From positions 1,364,001 to 1,428,000 of the forward strand of contig BCIO01000001.1 in NCBI GenBank assembly GCA_001599975.1: a stretch of 64,000 bases of DNA. The letters are read 5' to 3'. Below the pieces are notes generated by a model. That model was not told the origin of the DNA and did not search any database. It saw nothing but the letters and a program-made list of their open reading frames with translations. This DNA is from Cystobasidiopsis lactophilus (lineage: Eukaryota > Basidiomycota > Agaricostilbomycetes > Agaricostilbales > Chionosphaeraceae). How positions within the stretch are numbered: position 1 is the stretch's first letter; every line of letters starts with the position of its first letter. This document shows positions 9,447-61,142 of the stretch, piece by piece. The position numbers and the translations under genes are program-made.

Positions 9447-12382
9447 TCATGGCATAAACGCACCAGGCAAGAGCAAGGAGTCCCAGAAGGGCTCGTTCAG
9501 ATCCGACACCATCACTCCACCCCCGTTGCCAAACCATTGCGAAGGCAAAGCGTAGTCGCCGCCCGTCATGGGGAACCCGTGTGGCATCATCAGAACCTCC
9601 GCTGGGACGGCCATGCTTGGGGCCATCTCGACGGTAGGCGACACAGCAGGAGTGATGCTGCGGGCAGGGGTGTTGACTTGGCTTCGAATGTGAGAAGCCT
9701 GCGCGTTGGTGAGTGACAAGATGAATTTGGCCCATTGCGAGGAGACATGGTTCTTGATGGGGCTGATATGCTCCAAGACATCCGACAAGGTGTAAAGTAG
9801 CTCCAAGATGTACGCCTGGTGGTTGTGGAGGTGGGAGAGTTGAGGGCGACAGAAGCGAAGGAGGGAAACGGCCGCGTAGGAAATGCAAACGAAAGTAGCG
9901 TCCGGCTTTGAGATGACTGTCAGTACATTCTAACTCAGACGAAGAGAAGGGACCCAGGCTCACAGCATATTTCAACCAGCCACCTCGTCTGCGAGAACAT
10001 CAGCCCCTAGGACCTAGCTTCTCGAGCGAGAGCACCCACGCGTATTCGTCCCTTGCAATTCGAACACAAGACGAAGCAGCCGTGTAACATATGTTGAAAA
10101 AGCGGGGCGTCTCGCCAGGCGCTCGGGTGAGGGACGCATGCAAGCCAAAGGAGCAGCTGCGTCAAATTATGTGGCGTCAAACACAGTCATCTTCCTCCTG
10201 GCCGCCCGCTCAGTACTTACACGACAAGAATGGAGTAATGATACTTGAATGTTTGACCCATGCGCTGCAGCTGGAGGTTCTTGCGGTCGGCCGAGGTGAC
10301 CACGTCCTTGGCGCGCTCCGTGTTCATCTCGGTGCAGACGGCGCGCCAGGTCATCATTTGATCTTCAAATTGACGACAGATCATCGCAAAGTCGCCGTTA
10401 GCGCCAGTCAGCTCGTAATTCTCCTTGTCGCGCTGCAATCTGCAAGAGCGGGGTGAGCGACATCGTTTTTAGCGACGGAGAGGCGCCCACATTGCCATTG
10501 CCCTTTGCACAACGAGTTCCATGGCTGCAATGTAGCTGGGTGGGCGGTCATTCTGGACCTTGGTCGAATCCAAGTACCTATCGGCGCGCTGGATGATGCA
10601 ATCTTCGGGCAACGTTCGCGGTTTGCCCAGCTGTTGCGACAGTCGTGCGTCCCTTATGAAAGAATACTTTTTGACTTCATGAGACGACGATGTACGGGCA
10701 AATAAGAGAGAAGACGCACCACCCAAGTGCGGACCTGGTTTTTCTGGTCGTCGGTCTGGTCGTCTGCCAATGGCATGTGTTGCGACGGCAATCGATCCAG
10801 CCCAATCTCCTGAAGGATGGCTTTGGCTATGCCCCAGATGATCCAAGTCACGTCCTCCTGGCGTTCTTCCGGGGGCAGCGTTGTGTAGTTGGTGCTGATC
10901 AGCAAGGCCTGTCGTGCCGGTGAGCACCTGAGGACATCTAGAGCATGCGACTCACTTGAAATATCTCAATGGAGCGCCATCCTCTGCTTGGGATCTCGAA
11001 ACAAAGCCGTCTCGCGACCCGGTTCAAGCGAGTCGCGATATCCTGGTGGTTCTCGTGGAAGGTAGCCGCCACCGAACAGACTGTGGCGACACTATAGCTC
11101 AGACCACTAGCTCTCACATCACTCAGAGACAGAAGGTCATCACTCACTGACGGTGAAGAGAATGGGCGAGATTTGGCTGAGCTTCTCAGGCGTGTGAAAT
11201 TTGGGATTGAGCACTGCGAACAAAGCTGCCTTTGTAGGTTAGGCTTTTTGCGCTAACAGAAAAAGGCTGGAAGGTATTGGAGAAACTGACGGTGCATGTG
11301 TTCAAAGTAAAAGTGGAACAACTCCTTGCACGTCTCCCACGGCACGAACTGCAGGATCTCGGGCGTATCGAGGGGTTGCTGGGTGCGCCTGATCATGAGC
11401 TGATTGGGTCGGTGGCGGAAGAAGGCGGCCTCAGGAGCAGTGTCAATCGAGGCGCCGACGGTCGAGAGGGGTGGGAGCTTGCGGGTTTCCTCGTTGTGCT
11501 TGACCGTCTCGGCCTCGAGGATGCTGTGGGGTGCCAGCTCGTCGGAGTTCTTCTGGAGGTAGGGAGAGGGTAAGAGGTTCGGGGACCCATCGCCGCTTCG
11601 GCTGGAGCCCGCATCAGCCGGCGAGGGGGACATGGGGTGGTCGAAGGAGCTGGCGGTCAAGAGGGTCGTTCCAGAAGCGCTGGAAGCAGAGTCGGGGCGG
11701 CGTTGGGGTACGAAGGACAGGGCTGCGGGTTGCCGGGGAGCAATGCTAACAGGGAAGTAGCCGGCCGCTGCAGGCTCAGCGAGGGGCGCCTGGTCGCGCA
11801 AGTAGGCGGGCTCAGTCAGGGCCGTCAGACTTGGGTCGATGGGAATGGGAGGATGCTGCATGGGGAGAAGAGGGCCACCGTAAGGGACCGACGAGCCGCT
11901 GGCGGACGAGGGCGAGCCGAGTTCTGGTGGCGAATCGATGCTGTCGTCGTCGTGTTCCTTTTTGGGCCTCTTGCCAGACCGTCTGGACTCTTCAAAGACG
12001 CATTCCTGTCTGGTGAGCAGGCACCTCTCGCATCTAAATTCAAAAGTGGCACGAGCGTCAACGCTTGAAACATGGGGTTTGTGGCCAACTTACGGCGGGT
12101 TGAGGGATCCCCTGCACTTTGACTTCATCTTCCTGCAGACCTGCGGCAGACGGAGCGACGGTTCTCAGCAAAAGCGTCGGCGGTGCCTCTCCGCTTTCAA
12201 ACGTTCCTCACCAAGCATGCTGCCGACCCTCGCTTGAGCTTCACACGACCAGATTGGTTGTACTCGGTAGGCTGGGCCAAGTGATTGCTATAGACGGTCA
12301 CTTTCCTCTCCATGTTTGCAGGTGGACGTGTGGAGACAAGAGGCGTAACCTCCTCGTAGTCGGATCTCGGTTTGGAGCGCAC
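9447..12382 (-). CDS. Zn2Cys6 fungal transcription factor with fungal_trans middle domain
   Basis: Probable sequence-specific nuclear regulator. Exon 1 (12212-12382) ends in SAACL. The splice to 12140 gives ACLVCRKMKSKC, and the next splice gives PCERCLLTRQECVF, so the full cluster reads C-X2-C-X6-C-X7-C-X2-C-X6-C. A basic stretch (KRPKKE) and a Pro/Ser-rich linker follow. Exon 11253-11861 carries the start of the fungal_trans domain (LFHFYFEHMHRQFLQYLP), continued by LFAVLNPKFHTPEKL, EIPSRGWRSIEIFQ and WIIWGIAKAILQEIGLDRLP (to about 10800). The C-terminus (FWDSLLLPGAFMP) ends at 9447. The start could be 12382 or the second in-frame Met at 12313. It resembles PriB-like regulators, but targets cannot be read from the sequence. 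Several internal introns are only approximate. Confidence 0.85.
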
Positions 12383-24228: not shown

Positions 24229-26172
24229 ATGTCGGCCCGCGTGGCGAGTGAGTCGCTTCTTACTCTCTTCAGTTGAGCCCAAGAGTGAAGCTCAAGCGCC
24301 GAATGAGCAGCCAAGACCAAGCGGTTCGCGCCCACTAAAGTTGCGCCTCGAAAGCCTCCTCCCTCGACTGGGGCGTTGGCCGCTCCTGTCGTTGCAGCTC
24401 CTCCAGCACCGCCAGCTGCCAGTCCTCTGCCGCCACCTCCCGTTGCTCTCCCAGCTGAACCAGAGCCTGCACCTGCGCCGCTGCCGCCGCCGAGGCAGCC
24501 AGAGCCGGAAGTGCGCCAGCAGCCCGAGCGGCGCCAACCTTCGCCCTCACCTCCTCCGCCGCCGCCGCAAGAGGACGAGCCTGAAGACTCTGGCGACGCT
24601 CCAGAAGAGACGATCGACTCGAATGCCGCTTTGCTCGAGGGCATCAAGCGGGCGCTGCTGCAGGCTCCACCCCCAATTCGCCCACCCGGCTCGCCTGGGA
24701 AGGACCAGGATGCAGCTGAGACGCTGGTGTCCATTGGCACTGTGCCCAGCATTGGCGACTACTTTTTGGAGCTGGAAGATGGCCCACCGCTGTTCAACCC
24801 GAAGGAGAACAGCGACCATGAGGGCGAACAACAGGTTTGTCCAATCCACTGCTTTGTGATTGCACTGCGCTTATTCCCCTGCAGCAGACTCTTGGCAAGC
24901 ACAACAGATCGTTTCTGATTCCACGACCGGAAGACGACGAGGGCGAGGACGGCCAACGGCCCAAGAAGCGCAAGCGAACGCGCACCATTCCCATGGACCT
25001 CATCGACGAGCGGCCCATCGACCCCGCCGCCGTCTCCATGGCCGACATCTGCGAGGACAACGGCCAAGGGCGGCCGAGCACCAAGGCTGTGGCGGCTGCC
25101 ATTCAAAAGCGAGAGGAGAAGGCCAGGCGCAAGGAAGCGAGGCGGCGGCAAAAACAGCTGAATGCTCGGACGGCCAGGGGAGAGTCAGTCGAGGGCACGC
25201 CTGCGCCTCAACCGCCCGGGTCGGACGAAGAGCAAACGCCAGCGCCGCCCACACGCCGGCGAGCGAGTGAAAGCGTTGGCCCGAGGCCTCGGCAGGACAT
25301 CATTTCAGAAGTGATAGAAGAGGAGGACGAGGAAGAGGGAGCCCCTCGAGATGAGGAGGAGCCCGAGTTCGTCGAGAGCTCGCTGGTGCCGCAAGCTCGC
25401 ATGCGGAATGGCCGACTGGTGCTCGACGAGACTTCTCTCATGGCTTCCCGCGAAGACGAGGTGCGCTCTGGTTTTCTCTTAGACACACCAGGCGCTGGCT
25501 GACTAGAGGCTTCGCACGGCTCACAGGACGAGGACCACGGCCCGATCATTGACCAGTCGCTCACCGAGCGGCGCATTACCTCAGCCAGCTACAGCAAGCG
25601 CACCAAAGGCACCCGCTGGTCGACCGCTGAGACGGACCTGTTCTACGAAGCTATCCAGCAGAACGGCTCGGACCTAGCCATGATCGCCCTCTATTTCCCC
25701 GGGCGGACGCGCACCCAGATCCGGGCCAAGTGGCGAAGGGAAGATCGCATCGCGCCCGAGAAGATCACCCATGCTCTGATGAACAAAAAAGGCCGTGGTG
25801 AGTCATTCTTCTTACCCCTCCCTTCCAGCCTGCGATGGCTCATTACTGGTGGCGTTCGAAGATATGACTCAATTGTCGCTCCTCACCAAGATGGACCTCT
25901 CCGGCCCGGCACCGGAAGACCCCATGCAGCCATACTACGAAGCTGCGCTCAAAAGGGACTCGGTCACGCCTGGCTTGGGGCCCGACCCTGCCGAAGCCCC
26001 TGCGGCCACCACCACCACCATCACCAATACGACTTCGACCGCCCAGCCGCACACCAACCAGCGCAAAGAGCCGAGCCGACCTGTTGCCGTCGGCAAGAGA
26101 GCTACGGCGTTGGCGGCGGAGCTGGCTGCTAGAGGCGTCGAGCAGGAGATTGTCGAGTCGGACGAGGAGTGA
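24229..26172 (+). CDS. BDP1: TFIIIB subunit Bdp1 (B'')
   Basis: Essential component of TFIIIB for RNA polymerase III initiation. Exons by eye: 24229-24247, 24311-24834, 24885-25460, 25527-25797 and 25862-26172, giving 566 residues with exact phases. Residues 1-20 read MSARVATKTKRFAPTKVAPR after splicing. A Pro-rich region follows (near 24370-24560), then basic KKRKRTRTIPMDLIDE, a helical Arg/Lys-rich block, an acidic block, and the extended SANT domain: TKGTRWSTAETDLFYEAI, GSDLAMIALYFPGRTRTQIR, AKWRRED. The tail includes a Thr-rich run near 26010. The last intron has an alternative acceptor at 25828 with a stronger pyrimidine tract that adds 11 codons in frame. The exon-3 acceptor may also be 24887. 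Its 3' end is duplicated downstream. Confidence 0.93.
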
Positions 26173-26960
26173 AGTTTGGCCTCTCGTCTTGCTCGTGTTC
26201 TTGGGACTTTGTTGTAATTCTTTGCATTGTTAGATATTGTTGTATAAAGGCATATCTCACTCCCGCAAGTTCGCCATGCTGAGAATTGGCATGACCTCAC
26301 CCACGCCGCTTCCTCTCCTTCGCACGACGACTCGAACCATGAAGCACCCTATCTACCGCATGGAGATCGAGCAGCACAATGCGAACATTAAGACGCTGCA
26401 TGCAGATTTGGCCAGAGTGCGAGACGCGGGCGCGGCGGACCAGTACATGGTCGGTGTTCTTGTTCCATGCTGTCAAATGCGCTCGGCTCAATCGCTCACT
26501 TATCAGGAAGATGGATTCAATAGTTCGTCGCTCACTTGGACCATGCAGCTTAGACCAAACAGCAATTGGAGGCCCACAGATGCCATTGCATCGGAAGAGT
26601 GGCAAATTCGCCGTCTGGAGGAGCTCATCGGCCCTCCCAAGGCTCCGTGGTACAAGACCCTCTTCTGCCTTGGATCCCAGTCGAGAGCAGAGCCTCTCCA
26701 GCCTGCCCAAAGGGGAGGCTGAGCGAGCATCCAGTCCGCCCTTCTGGCTCCCTCGCGCTCACCTTCTGTCGCTCAGCTGTTCTTTGGCAGTCTTGTAATC
26801 TACGATACGATTTGACTCACAATAATTCTGGTGGTCTTCTCGTTCACCGAGCCAAGCGTATCAGAGGTCTTGGGTGGCAAAATTCACGAACTCTTCATGG
26901 CCCATTGATATCGCCAGCGGATCTCCAGATTTTCCGCTCTACGACAAAGCTCGCCGTCAC
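26081..26960 (+). repeat. tandem segmental duplication, copy A
   Basis: 880-bp unit: the last 92 bases of BDP1 coding sequence, its 3' UTR, and a small unrecognised gene. It begins ctgttgccgtcggcaagaga and is followed directly by a second copy beginning ctgttggtatcggcaagaga at 26961. The two units can be aligned by eye over nearly their whole length with scattered substitutions and small indels, so the event is not recent. The shared right end is the ttttccgctct / tttcccgctct block. Confidence 0.85.
26339..26722 (+). CDS. unrecognised small protein, duplicate gene copy A
   Basis: Family not recognised. The ATG at 26339 (MKHPIYRMEIEQHNANIKTL) is conserved in copy B, whereas the in-frame upstream Met of copy A is not, so this start is preferred. 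The second half reads ASEEWQIRRLEELIGPPKAP followed by WYKTLFCLG. The frame is open without splicing (128 residues). Comparison with copy B suggests an intron at 26450-26548 (99 nt, GT...AG), giving 94 residues. A stronger-looking acceptor at 26506 would leave 57 nt. Conservation of protein more than of wobble positions between copies suggests real coding. Helical, charged, no signal peptide, no membrane span. The 3' end of BDP1 is about 170 bp upstream on the same strand. Confidence 0.5.
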   Translation: MKHPIYRMEIEQHNANIKTLHADLARVRDAGAADQYMVGVLVPCCQMRSAQSLTYQEDGFNSSSLTWTMQLRPNSNWRPTDAIASEEWQIRRLEELIGPPKAPWYKTLFCLGSQSRAEPLQPAQRGG

Positions 26961-27060
26961 CTGTTGGTATCGGCAAGAGAGCCACGACGTTGACAGCCGA
27001 GCTGACTGCCAGGGACGTCGAGCAGGAGATTGTTGGGTCGGACGTTTGGCCTCTCGACTA
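26961..27060 (+). pseudogene. duplicated fragment of the BDP1 C-terminus
   Basis: Reads IGKRATTLTAELTARDVEQE in the frame matching VGKRATALAAELAARGVEQE of BDP1. It then diverges at the point where BDP1 ends in SDEE and runs to a stop shortly after. There is no promoter, SANT domain or upstream exon, so it is a non-functional relic of the tandem duplication. Confidence 0.75.
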
Positions 27061-27203
27061 ACTCGCTTTTAGGCTTTGTTGTGATCCTTTGGCCAGTTAA
27101 TGTTGTATAGAGGCATATTGCCCTCCTGCAAGTTCACCATGCTGAGAATTGGCATGACCTCCGAACTCGCTCCGCTTCCTGCCCTTGCTCGACGACTCGA
27201 ACC

Positions 27204-28812
27204 ATGAAGCACCCTATATACCGCATGGAGCTCGAGCAGCACAATGCGAACCTTAGGTCTTTCAGTGCAACTCTGGCCAGATTGCGAGACGCGGGTGCAG
27301 TCAACCAGTCCACGGTCGGTGTCCATGTTGCTTGCAGGGTTCGTCACAGGAATTTCTGGCCGCAAAATTTCGCGAAATTTCGTCCAGGAAAGGAAAAGAA
27401 GTAGACTATGACCCTTGTATTTCGCCAACGAAAGATGGAGAAAGAAAGGGAAGTGGATGGGCCGCAAAGCGGAAATTTCGCAAATTTTGTAACATTTCCC
27501 TGACCATCACATGGTCGCGTGCAGACTGCAGCCCAGCTCTGTTGTTCGCGAACCACCAGCTCGCAGGCCTTTTGTTATGATCCTGACTGCTCCCTTGGGT
27601 AGTGTTCGGTCGTGGTCGGTCGCGGTCGCTCGAGATCTGCCCTTCCTGCTTGCCCTGGGCGCCCATCAATTCCGTCGTGTTGATCTGCTCTGCTCTCGCT
27701 TTGATCCCACCCTTGTCTCCCGTGCATATCTGAGTCGCCCATCATTCTCTTCTATCGCCTAGTAGCACTTGCTCGCCGGCTTCGCCGATGCTCAAAAGAC
27801 GCAGAGACTGGGAGCAGCCAAGGACGAGTCAGCCTGCACAGGTGCGCCGATTGTCGTCCTCTCTGCTGTGCTGTTGGCTATGAAAGCTCACGTCAACTTG
27901 CTATGATGCTACAGCCAGTCATGCTGGGCCTCGCTGTGAGCCTATAGGATCGAGGGAGAATGTTGCCGGAAGCTCTCCCGTTTTGCAGCTGCGACCTTCA
28001 CATCTTCCCAATAATGCTGAGTGCGTCTCCCTCGTTCGATCTCTATGTCCAAAGAACCAGACCTCAAATGTATTCAGATCTTTGCTTTCATGAGCCTCCT
28101 GCCGGTGGCGAACACTCTATAGAAACCCCCTTTGCAACTTTGCTTGACTCATCTCCGCTCATCGTGATGTGTTAGCCATCGTTGATCAACGTAGTTCGTG
28201 ACATTGTGAAAACCCAATGGTGCATGCTCTGCAAAAAAGTTTCCGAGAAGGATGCGTTCCGCTCCTTCCGCCCTTCGACGAAATTTCGCGATATTTCCTC
28301 CTCTTCCGCGAAAGAAAAGGAAGTGCTTGCTACATTGCAAGGAAGGAAACGAAATCTGCGCCTACGTCTCCAGGAAAGGGCCTTTCCCAGCGAATTTTTT
28401 CCTGGTCATTTCGTGACGAACCCTGGTTGCTTGCTGTCAACTGCGCTCGGCTCAAGCTCCCACTTATCAGGAAAATGAAATCAACAGTTCGTCGCTTAGT
28501 TAGACTATGGAGCTTAAAACAAACACCAATTTGCGGCCGACAGTTGCCATTGCTTCGGAACAGTGGCATATTCGTCGTTTGGAGGAGCTCATCGGCCCTC
28601 CCAAAGCTCCGTGGCACAAGAATCTCTTCTGCCTTGGATCTGGACCCGAACCAGAGCTTCCCCTAAGGGAAGGCCGACCGGCCAGCCAGTCCGCCCTCGT
28701 TGGCTCTCTCGCGCTGACTTCCTGTCGCTCAGCTGTTCTGCCGCAGTGTGATGAGCCTACGATGCAATGCGACTCGCAAGAATGGAAGCCTTCTTGTCCT
28801 CTACTAAGCTAA
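27204..28812 (+). CDS. unrecognised small protein, duplicate gene copy B, intron carries a transposon
   Basis: Copy B of the 26339 gene. Exon 1 27204-27314 encodes MKHPIYRMELEQHNANLRSF and, like copy A, has exactly 37 codons before a gtcggtgt donor. Exon 2, 28513-28812, encodes LKTNTNLRPTVAIASEQWHI, then RRLEELIGPPKAPWHKNLFC and a tail longer than that of copy A. The interval is 99 nt after removing the element and one target copy, the same as in copy A, and it contains an in-frame stop, so the gene works only if this interval is spliced. With splicing the product is 136 residues. It may equally be a pseudogene: the donor is weak and the intron now exceeds 1.1 kb, far longer than others here. 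Confidence 0.4.
27327..27334. repeat. 8-bp target site duplication, left copy
   Basis: gttgcttg directly before the left terminal repeat, identical to 28426-28433. Copy A has a related empty site (tccatgctgtc in the same intron position), so the insertion followed the segmental duplication or at least hit only copy B. Confidence 0.9.
27335..28425 (+). mobile_element. non-autonomous hAT-like DNA transposon
   Basis: 1,091 bp with perfect 13-bp terminal inverted repeats, CAGGGTTCGTCAC at 27335 and its complement gtgacgaaccctg ending at 28425. It is flanked by the 8-bp direct repeat gttgcttg. An 8-bp duplication and a CAGGG start are the hallmarks of the hAT superfamily. A subterminal 15-bp inverted repeat, tcgcgaaatttcgtc at 27370-27384 and its complement at 28277-28291, and further aaatttcgc motifs near 27473 could be transposase-binding sites. 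No transposase frame is found: the longest internal frames are under 100 codons and have no DDE or hATC signature. It lies inside the predicted intron of the copy-B small gene. The perfect ends and target repeats suggest a fairly young insertion. Confidence 0.85.
28426..28433. repeat. 8-bp target site duplication, right copy
   Basis: gttgcttg immediately after the right terminal repeat, followed by ctgtcaactgcgctcggctc, which continues the sequence seen in copy A (ctgtcaaatgcgctcggctc). Confidence 0.9.
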
Positions 28813-28907
28813 GCATGGACGTCCCGAGCTCTTGGGTGGCAAAACACACACGGATTCCTCTTGGCCCATCGATATCGTAATTGGTGCTACTGGATTTCCC
28901 GCTCTGC

Positions 28908-29471: not shown

Positions 29472-33764
<4,293 letters not shown>

Positions 33765-59052: not shown

Positions 59053-61142
59053 ATGAAGAGGACTCTGCTCGCGGGCGCCATTCGCTCCTCGACTCAGCTC
59101 CAACCCCGCCCAGCTGCAAAAATGGCTTTCAGCTCGAGCTCCGGCCGCCAGTCCGAGGCTTTCTCCATTGATCCACCATCGGTCCAAGAAGAGGAGGCCA
59201 AGCTGAACAAGACGACGGAGGAGATCCAGGCTTGGTTCGACTCCCCCCGCTTCGAGGGCATCAAGAGGCCTTACACCGCCAAGGATGTCGCCATCAAGCG
59301 TGGCACCTTCCCCATCAACCCGCTCAACCCTGTTAATATCCAGGCGCAAAAGTTATTCGCCGTGCTCTCGCGAGCTGCGAAAGCGAAGAAGCCCGTCCAC
59401 ACCCTAGGCGCGATCGACCCTGTGCAACAATCCCAGATGGCTCCCAACCAAGAGGTCGTCTACATTTCTGGCTGGGCTTCTTCTAGTGTCCTCACTACAG
59501 CCATGAACGAAGTCGGCCCTGATTTGGCCGATTACCCATACACCACGGTGCCCAACCAGGTGCAGCGTATGTTCAAGGCGCAGCAGCTGCACGACAGGAA
59601 GCACCTCGATGAGCGTTTCTCAAAGTCGGCTGCCGACAGGGCCAAGCTGCCTTACGTGGATTACCTCCGCCCCATCATTGGTGAGTTTCCTGCCCGCAGC
59701 ACATAATTTCGGAGCTGACCTCTTTGTCCACAGCTGATGGCGACACCGGGTAGGCTTCCTTGTGCTTTCGCTCTGAGGGCACCGCTGACAGATGAGATGG
59801 GAATAAGGCACGGAGGCCTCTCGAGCGTCATGAAGTTGGCCAAGATGTTTGGCGAGAGTGGCGCGTCCGGCGTTCACTTCGAGGACCAGCTGCACGGCGG
59901 CAAGAAGTGCGGCCACCAAGGCGGCAAAGTTCTTGTGCCTATTTCGGAGCACGTCTCGCGCTTGATTTCCTGCCGCATGCAGTGGGACATCATGGGCATC
60001 GAGTCGCTGGTCATCGCCCGCACCGACGCTGAAACCGGCAAGCTCATTTCCAGCACGGCCGACACTCGCGACCATGAGTTCTTCTTGGGTGTCGAGGTCA
60101 CGGACCCCAACTTCAGGCCGTTGGCCGAAGTCATCGCCAAGGCCGAGTCCACCGGTGCTTCTGGCGCCGAGGTGAACGACATTGAGGCCAAGTGGATGAA
60201 GAGTGTCAAGCTGGTTACTTTCAAGCAAGGTGAGCCTCCCTTCGCCAGGCCTTCCCCAGAGCGACGCTGACGTTCGCAATACCCAGCCTTTGAGAACGCT
60301 GTCAAGGCGGCTCACGGCGAAAGCGCGGTCTCTGCCAAAGTGCAAGAGTACGATGCTAAGCTCACGCCAGAGTCTTCCATCCGTGACATGAAGCAAGCGG
60401 CTAAGGAGATTCTGGGCACCGAGGTGGCGTGGGACTGGGACCTGCCTCGCACCCGAGAGGGCTACTACCACTACGCTGGCGGTATCGAGGTGAGTTGATT
60501 GCTGCACAGAAGCTGGGTAGAGCTAATTCGTCCGTCTGCAGGCTGCTGTCAAGCGCGTCAAGGCCTTTGCGCCCTACGCCGACATGCTATGGCTCGAGAC
60601 GAAGACACCTGATGTCAAGCAAGCTACCGGCTTTGCAGCGGACATCCACAAGGACTTCCCCGGCAAGTGGCTGGTCTACAACCTTTCGCCTTCGTTCAAC
60701 TGGTCAGCCCAAGGCTTCACCGACGAGACCCTCAAGTCCTTTGTCTGGGATCTTGGCCAGGCCGGCTTCGTCTTCCAGCTCGTCAGCTTGGCTGGTCTGC
60801 ATGCTGATGCTACCATTTTCCGTGAGTCCATTCGTGTCATGGAGATCTCAAGAACGGGGTCTCATCGTGCATCTAGACGAACTGTCCACCCAATTCAAGA
60901 CCGACGGCATGCTGGCGTACGTCAACCTCATCCAATCGCGCGAACGTCAATCTGGCTGTGATGTCTACACTCATCAAAAGTGGTCAGGCGCCAGCTATAT
61001 TGACAGGCTGCTCAACAGTACGCTCTCCTTTCAAAAAAAGGACCTGATAATTCGCGCTGACCCTTGTCTCTCTCTAGTTGTGGCTGCGGGTTCTTCTGCA
61101 ACGGCAGCCAGCGGAGCTGACTCGACTGAGCACTCGTTTTAA
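59053..61142 (+). CDS. ICL1: isocitrate lyase
   Basis: Cleaves isocitrate to glyoxylate and succinate in the glyoxylate shunt. The ATG at 59053 gives [20 protein letters not shown], a basic Ser/Arg-rich start; a second ATG at 59122 (MAFSSSSG) gives a shorter form. Exon 1 59053-59680 ends PII; a 16-nt exon 59734-59749 supplies ADGDTG; exon 3 begins 59808 with [12 protein letters not shown]. Catalytic loop [13 protein letters not shown] lies near 59910. Then [100 protein letters not shown], ending STEHSF. The [12 protein letters not shown] form suits isocitrate rather than 2-methylisocitrate lyase. No SKL-type tail is seen. Six or seven introns. Confidence 0.94.

Follow-up and report, generated by a model that had tools for sequence, protein, structure and literature searches.

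We interpret the 1091-bp sequence described here as a cut-and-paste DNA transposon of the non-autonomous type, belonging most likely to the hAT superfamily, and give this reading a probability of roughly 0.87. It lies within the second unit of a tandem duplication, while the first unit presents a paralogous empty site, and this built-in reference fixes both element ends as well as the order of events, with the duplication coming first and the insertion afterwards. An earlier note on this DNA had proposed a hAT-like non-autonomous transposon; the gapless empty site upholds an insertion with perfect ends, while the hAT part of the proposal is a matter of fit on anatomy. Coordinates of the features (Table 1) refer to the window, meaning the whole stretch of DNA analysed, 64 kb in length, and literature values come from excerpts of the cited papers.

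Table 1. Features of the element and of the duplication in which it resides.
Feature	Position	Strand	Remarks
Non-autonomous hAT-like element	27335-28425	.	1091 bp; insertion backed by paralogous empty site
Left terminal inverted repeat (TIR), CAGGGTTCGTCAC	27335-27347	+	13/13 against the right end
Right terminal inverted repeat	28413-28425	-	reads GTGACGAACCCTG on the + strand
Target-site duplication (TSD), left copy GTTGCTTG	27327-27334	.	
Target-site duplication, right copy GTTGCTTG	28426-28433	.	
Left subterminal region	27348-27514	.	GC 0.437; AAATTTCG/CGAAATTT at 27365, 27373/27375 and 27473; boundary set by eye
Right subterminal region	28250-28412	.	GC 0.503; CGAAATTTCG palindrome at 28279-28288; boundary set by eye
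15-bp subterminal inverted repeat, left arm TCGCGAAATTTCGTC	27370-27384	+	
15-bp subterminal inverted repeat, right arm	28277-28291	-	
Internal filler	27515-28249	.	735 bp, GC 0.537; without CGAAATTT motif; no recognised protein
Unit 1 of the tandem duplication, paralogous empty site	26079-26940	+	contains BDP1-like C-terminal codons
Single 8-mer GTTCCATG at the unit-1 empty site	26462-26469	+	
Unit 2 of the tandem duplication, left of the element	26959-27334	+	308/373 aligned bases identical to unit 1
Unit 2 of the tandem duplication, right of the element	28434-28905	+	361/462 aligned bases identical to unit 1

Both tips of the element read CAGGG, the TIRs agree at 13 of 13 positions and differ at position 14, and the two flanking copies of GTTGCTTG are identical at 8/8. 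The perfect 13-bp inverted termini, the perfect 8-bp target duplication and the 15-bp subterminal inverted repeat claimed in the earlier note were thus all recovered, the last of them as TCGCGAAATTTCGTC at 27370 (+) and 28277 (-). Structures combining 13-bp ends with an 8-bp duplication, with arms no more than 6 kb apart, occur exactly once in the 64-kb window, and that single case is the element itself; in 60 first-order Markov shuffles of the window, the end-plus-TSD geometry never appeared. Under a relaxed scan, which allowed up to one TSD mismatch and up to 4/13 end mismatches in ends beginning with CA and at most 8 kb apart, six candidates including the element were obtained, and the other five agree at 9-10 of the 13 end positions, with an imperfect TSD in four of them.

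The duplication measures about 0.87 kb, its start lying within the final codons of a BDP1-like gene, and its second unit is split by the element. Translations of the flanks had pointed to the same arrangement, since both repeat an upstream stretch, and blastn within the window paired 26079-26470 with 26959-27335 (78.7%) and 26459-26940 with 28423-28905 (75.6%). Once the element and one TSD copy were removed, unit 2 aligned with unit 1 at 669/835 identical positions (80.1%; Jukes-Cantor 0.231), with 40 gap columns, none of which falls at the junction. Among join offsets from 0 to 24, an offset of 8 scored best (172, the next being 167), whereas retention of both TSD copies opened an 8-base gap in the alignment and lowered the score to 156. 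The check for an empty site, run here on a paralogous and not an orthologous site, therefore gave a gapless unit 1 with a single 8-mer, GTTCCATG, and as this 8-mer stands alone and without a footprint, unit 1 appears never to have been occupied. Since unit 1 runs gapless across the insertion point, the insertion is, on the evidence of this alignment, younger than the flanking duplication. Unit 1 holds the final BDP1-like codons, PVAVGKRATALAAELAARGVEQEIVESDEE, together with the stop, and the tail of unit 2 is similar but altered, reading PVGIGKRATTLTAELTARDVEQEIVGSD before it diverges. The possibility that the repeated flanks are coding was dropped, because the matching stretches other than the BDP1-like tail lie in different frames and contain stops.

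In regard to the age of the insertion, the estimates assume neutral change and equal rates. If the element had inserted immediately after the duplication, with 0.099-0.129 changes per site and copy since then, the 16 TSD and 26 TIR bases would all have stayed unchanged with a probability of 0.003-0.013, and such low values suggest that the insertion probably followed the duplication only after a clear lapse of time. Dating from the TSD alone was abandoned, as the corresponding probability of no change is 0.11-0.19, and the 95% upper bound obtained in that way is 0.17 changes per site. Taken over all 42 unchanged bases, this bound falls to 0.069 changes per site. The recency claimed in the earlier note is accordingly retained in the sense that the insertion postdates the duplication, but in a weaker form than originally stated, as up to about 7% of per-site change is allowed.

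The element is classed as non-autonomous because it measures 1091 bp and yields no transposase match, whereas autonomous hAT elements are 2.5-5 kb long, and short copies related to BuT2 span 532-927 bp (PMC3942097); an autonomous element would also bring its own transposase. The absence of a transposase frame, already claimed from the sequence alone, is borne out by the Pfam search of 17 of the 33 frames between stops, each 30 aa or longer, that overlap the element, where no match rose above the family cut-off and no transposase was seen. Below the cut-off, these frames gave matches to Cor1 (E = 0.19) and zf-TRM13_CCCH (E = 0.099). Likewise, Pfam revealed no transposase in 33 further ORFs of the window, where frames of 110 aa or longer between stops number 231, and both Rfam matches obtained for 26900-28900 stayed under the gathering score.

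The ends of the element are distinguished by the motif CGAAATTT/AAATTTCG, which gives six matches at four places within 330 bp of end sequence, none in the 735-bp middle, and four matches at three places in the remaining 62.9 kb of the window. The Bonferroni-corrected Poisson p for this clustering is 4e-9, a value that is optimistic because the end boundaries were chosen after viewing the sequence and palindromes were counted twice. The clustered motifs look like the subterminal repeats of hAT elements, and their distances to the tip are unequal between the two ends. The BED site of Hermes, AAGT/AAGC, was also considered as a subterminal repeat of the element and was dropped for lack of enrichment, its two forms occurring 3 and 2 times in the ends against expectations of 2.4 and 4.2. 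The GC content of the left end is unusually low, being equalled by just one of the 2503 stretches, 165 bp long and overlapping, that were compared from outside the element, and the GC content of the right end is unremarkable (209 of 2503). The subterminal motif at 27368-27377 and 28284-28293 includes TTTCGCGA(A/T)A, which we take to resemble an E2F-type site, and binding of a host factor to this putative E2F-like site is possible.

The distribution of the motif bears also on the origin of the middle, which could be filler DNA acquired by the element. This reading, which overlaps with the preferred one, is rather unlikely as a separate account: the GC content of the middle lies closer to that of the window (0.564) than does that of the left end, and the CGAAATTT motif is missing from it, yet the comparison of the middle with the window, by blastn and with 23 frame pieces of at least 25 aa (29 matches at E ≤ 1, lowest E 0.027), brought up no convincing similarity, and the frames scanned gave no Pfam match above cut-off; the middle may nevertheless come from another part of the genome. 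We infer a function for the CGAAATTT motif, and an origin of the element either by internal deletion or by filler acquisition.

Assignment to hAT probably holds, judging from the anatomy, that is, from the tips, the TIR length, the TSD length and the clustered subterminal repeats. Elements of this superfamily have TIRs of 10-25 bp and TSDs of 8 bp (PMC3942097), with the tip consensus (T/C)A(A/G)NG (PMC4958966), and the 13-bp TIR, the 8-bp TSD and the CAGGG tips all agree with these values. TSD length alone is an imperfect marker of hAT, as Zisupton elements also produce 8 bp, and some hAT elements of rust fungi have 7-bp TSDs (PMC12730594). The element could be a non-autonomous member of another superfamily with an 8-bp TSD, for instance Zisupton (KDZ) or P, and this we regard as improbable. 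KDZ transposases are present in fungi, and two Kyakuja families of Laccaria share the CA..TG tips with our element; however, the same two families are given in the excerpted source with 7-bp TSDs and no TIRs (PMC12730594), whereas the element has TIRs of 13 bp, and its CAGGG tips agree with the hAT consensus (PMC4958966) as well as with the Mar family (PMC3517528). A chance or mis-assembled inverted repeat in place of an insertion, with which the single copy in 64 kb would be consistent, is hardly credible in view of the 0/60 shuffles and of unit 1 aligning straight across the site with one 8-mer, an empty paralogue by which it is largely refuted. For P elements, the TSD is likewise 8 bp, and among hAT elements the target preference nTnnnnAn extends to the Ac group. 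Hermes prefers nTnnnnAn and TcBuster nnnTAnnn (PMC10512250); at the single site available, GTTGCTTG fits the former with T at position 2 but not at position 7, which is also T, and fits the latter at neither of positions 4-5, which are GC.

Returning to the hAT reading, the likeness to the subterminal repeats of Hermes and Kat1 makes it most likely that the element would be mobilised in trans, by a transposase of the hAT type. This enzyme, supplied from elsewhere, would bind at the clusters of CGAAATTT-type repeats in the subterminal regions and cut at the CAGGG tips, the excised DNA would be joined to a target with an 8-bp stagger, and repair would leave the 8-bp duplication. In this way, the element would have entered unit 2 of an already existing tandem duplication, downstream of the BDP1-like gene. 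A more specific proposal, which we consider unlikely, is that the element belongs to a fungal hAT lineage of its own, with a transposase that would recognise the CGAAATTTCG palindrome, together with an overlapping TTTCGCGAAA, through several subterminal sites, would have a target preference unlike that of Hermes or TcBuster, and would be supplied by an active partner still mobilising the element in the same genome.

Searches for relatives, in the window and in viral, plasmid and prokaryotic collections, found none. Apart from the element and its two ends, blastn of the element within the window brought up only short matches of chance level, the best one outside being 21 bp long (E 0.058), and against plasmids and phages there was no match at E 0.01. 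Scans of IMG/VR with exact patterns gave 2, 9 and 28 loci, and at least 60 loci with the end pattern were found in prokaryote genomes, where about 120 are expected by chance (257 Gb, both strands). As these are viral and prokaryotic collections, the lack of relatives in them tells little. The 99 loci that were fetched contain 74 inverted end pairs at most 6 kb apart, with up to three mismatches per end, and flank likeness was found for just one of the 74 (L078), at 6/8 bases, which is the chance level. Two loci (L001 and L002) were set aside as near-identical sequence around one same match, without a partner end. Another two (L064 and L071) have 34 bp in common (88%, E 2e-5); this stretch falls on the subterminal motif used as the search pattern, and the two were rejected because both contigs have a GC content of 0.64 and long frames. 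The IMG/VR contigs L068 (10080-10260) and L065 (580-760) appear by eye to be mutual relatives with several close TTTCGCGAAA-like palindromes, and no further likeness of these two to the element was seen. Among the papers searched by text, none contained the 13-mer or its complement, and 12-mer pieces of the end turned up in three. For one of the three, a plant hAT paper (PMC4958966), the match is a coincidence, being part of a PCR primer inside a transposase gene.

The duplication lies between two genes, in DNA that is eukaryotic and presumably fungal. Upstream of the element is a gene for a Myb/SANT protein (Pfam Myb_DNA-bind_7), presumably the TFIIIB subunit BDP1, and downstream of the duplication is the gene for RPB2, the second subunit of RNA polymerase II (29472-33261, with a candidate start at 29472). 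Its main body occupies two frames, 30243-32159 and 32092-33261, and the frame changes look like introns. The closest solved RPB2 structure is entry 3h0g, which we take to be that of fission yeast. A tRNA search of the window found none. Elsewhere in the window, a minus-strand frame at 11256-12089 contains RCERCLLTRQECVFEESRR, which recalls a fungal Zn2Cys6 cluster, with no Pfam match, and isocitrate lyase is present in pieces at 59719-61139 (+), where Pfam ICL matches lie in two separate frames that are probably exons. Should an active partner exist, the element could be put to use for endogenous mutagenesis or, in strain comparisons, as a marker. Beyond such uses, it is an ordinary non-autonomous transposon of a known kind, and what is new here is the internal empty-site control.

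Among known systems, Mar, a MITE family of the hAT (Buster) type in Drosophila with TIRs of the form CAG(G/A)GGTAGGC, resembles our element in being short and non-coding, in having short TIRs tipped by CAGGG or CAGAG and in its 8-bp TSD (PMC3517528). As excerpted, the same source describes Mar TSDs that fit nnnTAnnn, which the TSD of the element does not, and many Mar copies along with relics of the full-length form, whereas the element, non-coding and 1.1 kb long, was seen in one copy in the 64-kb window; MITEs are short, non-coding and numerous. Hermes and Ac/Ds also share the 8-bp TSD and short TIRs, and Ds relies on a partner, as our element would have to do too (PMC10368747, PMC10512250). 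The subterminal repeats of Hermes, bound by BED domains, are asymmetrically placed (PMC10368747), a trait that the element has in common with them. On the other hand, the element shows no enrichment of AAGT/AAGC, the repeat of Hermes, and its TSD agrees with the Hermes preference at position 2 only. Kat1, a domesticated hAT protein of a yeast, is dependent on TIRs, and the authors of the study propose that it needs subterminal repeats as well (PMC4763223). The element that it cuts in Kluyveromyces lactis is, like ours, fungal, hAT-type and non-autonomous, with a repeated subterminal motif, present there six times between the TIRs, but it differs in its imperfect TIRs starting with GTATAC and in belonging to a domesticated mating-type switching system (PMC4763223).
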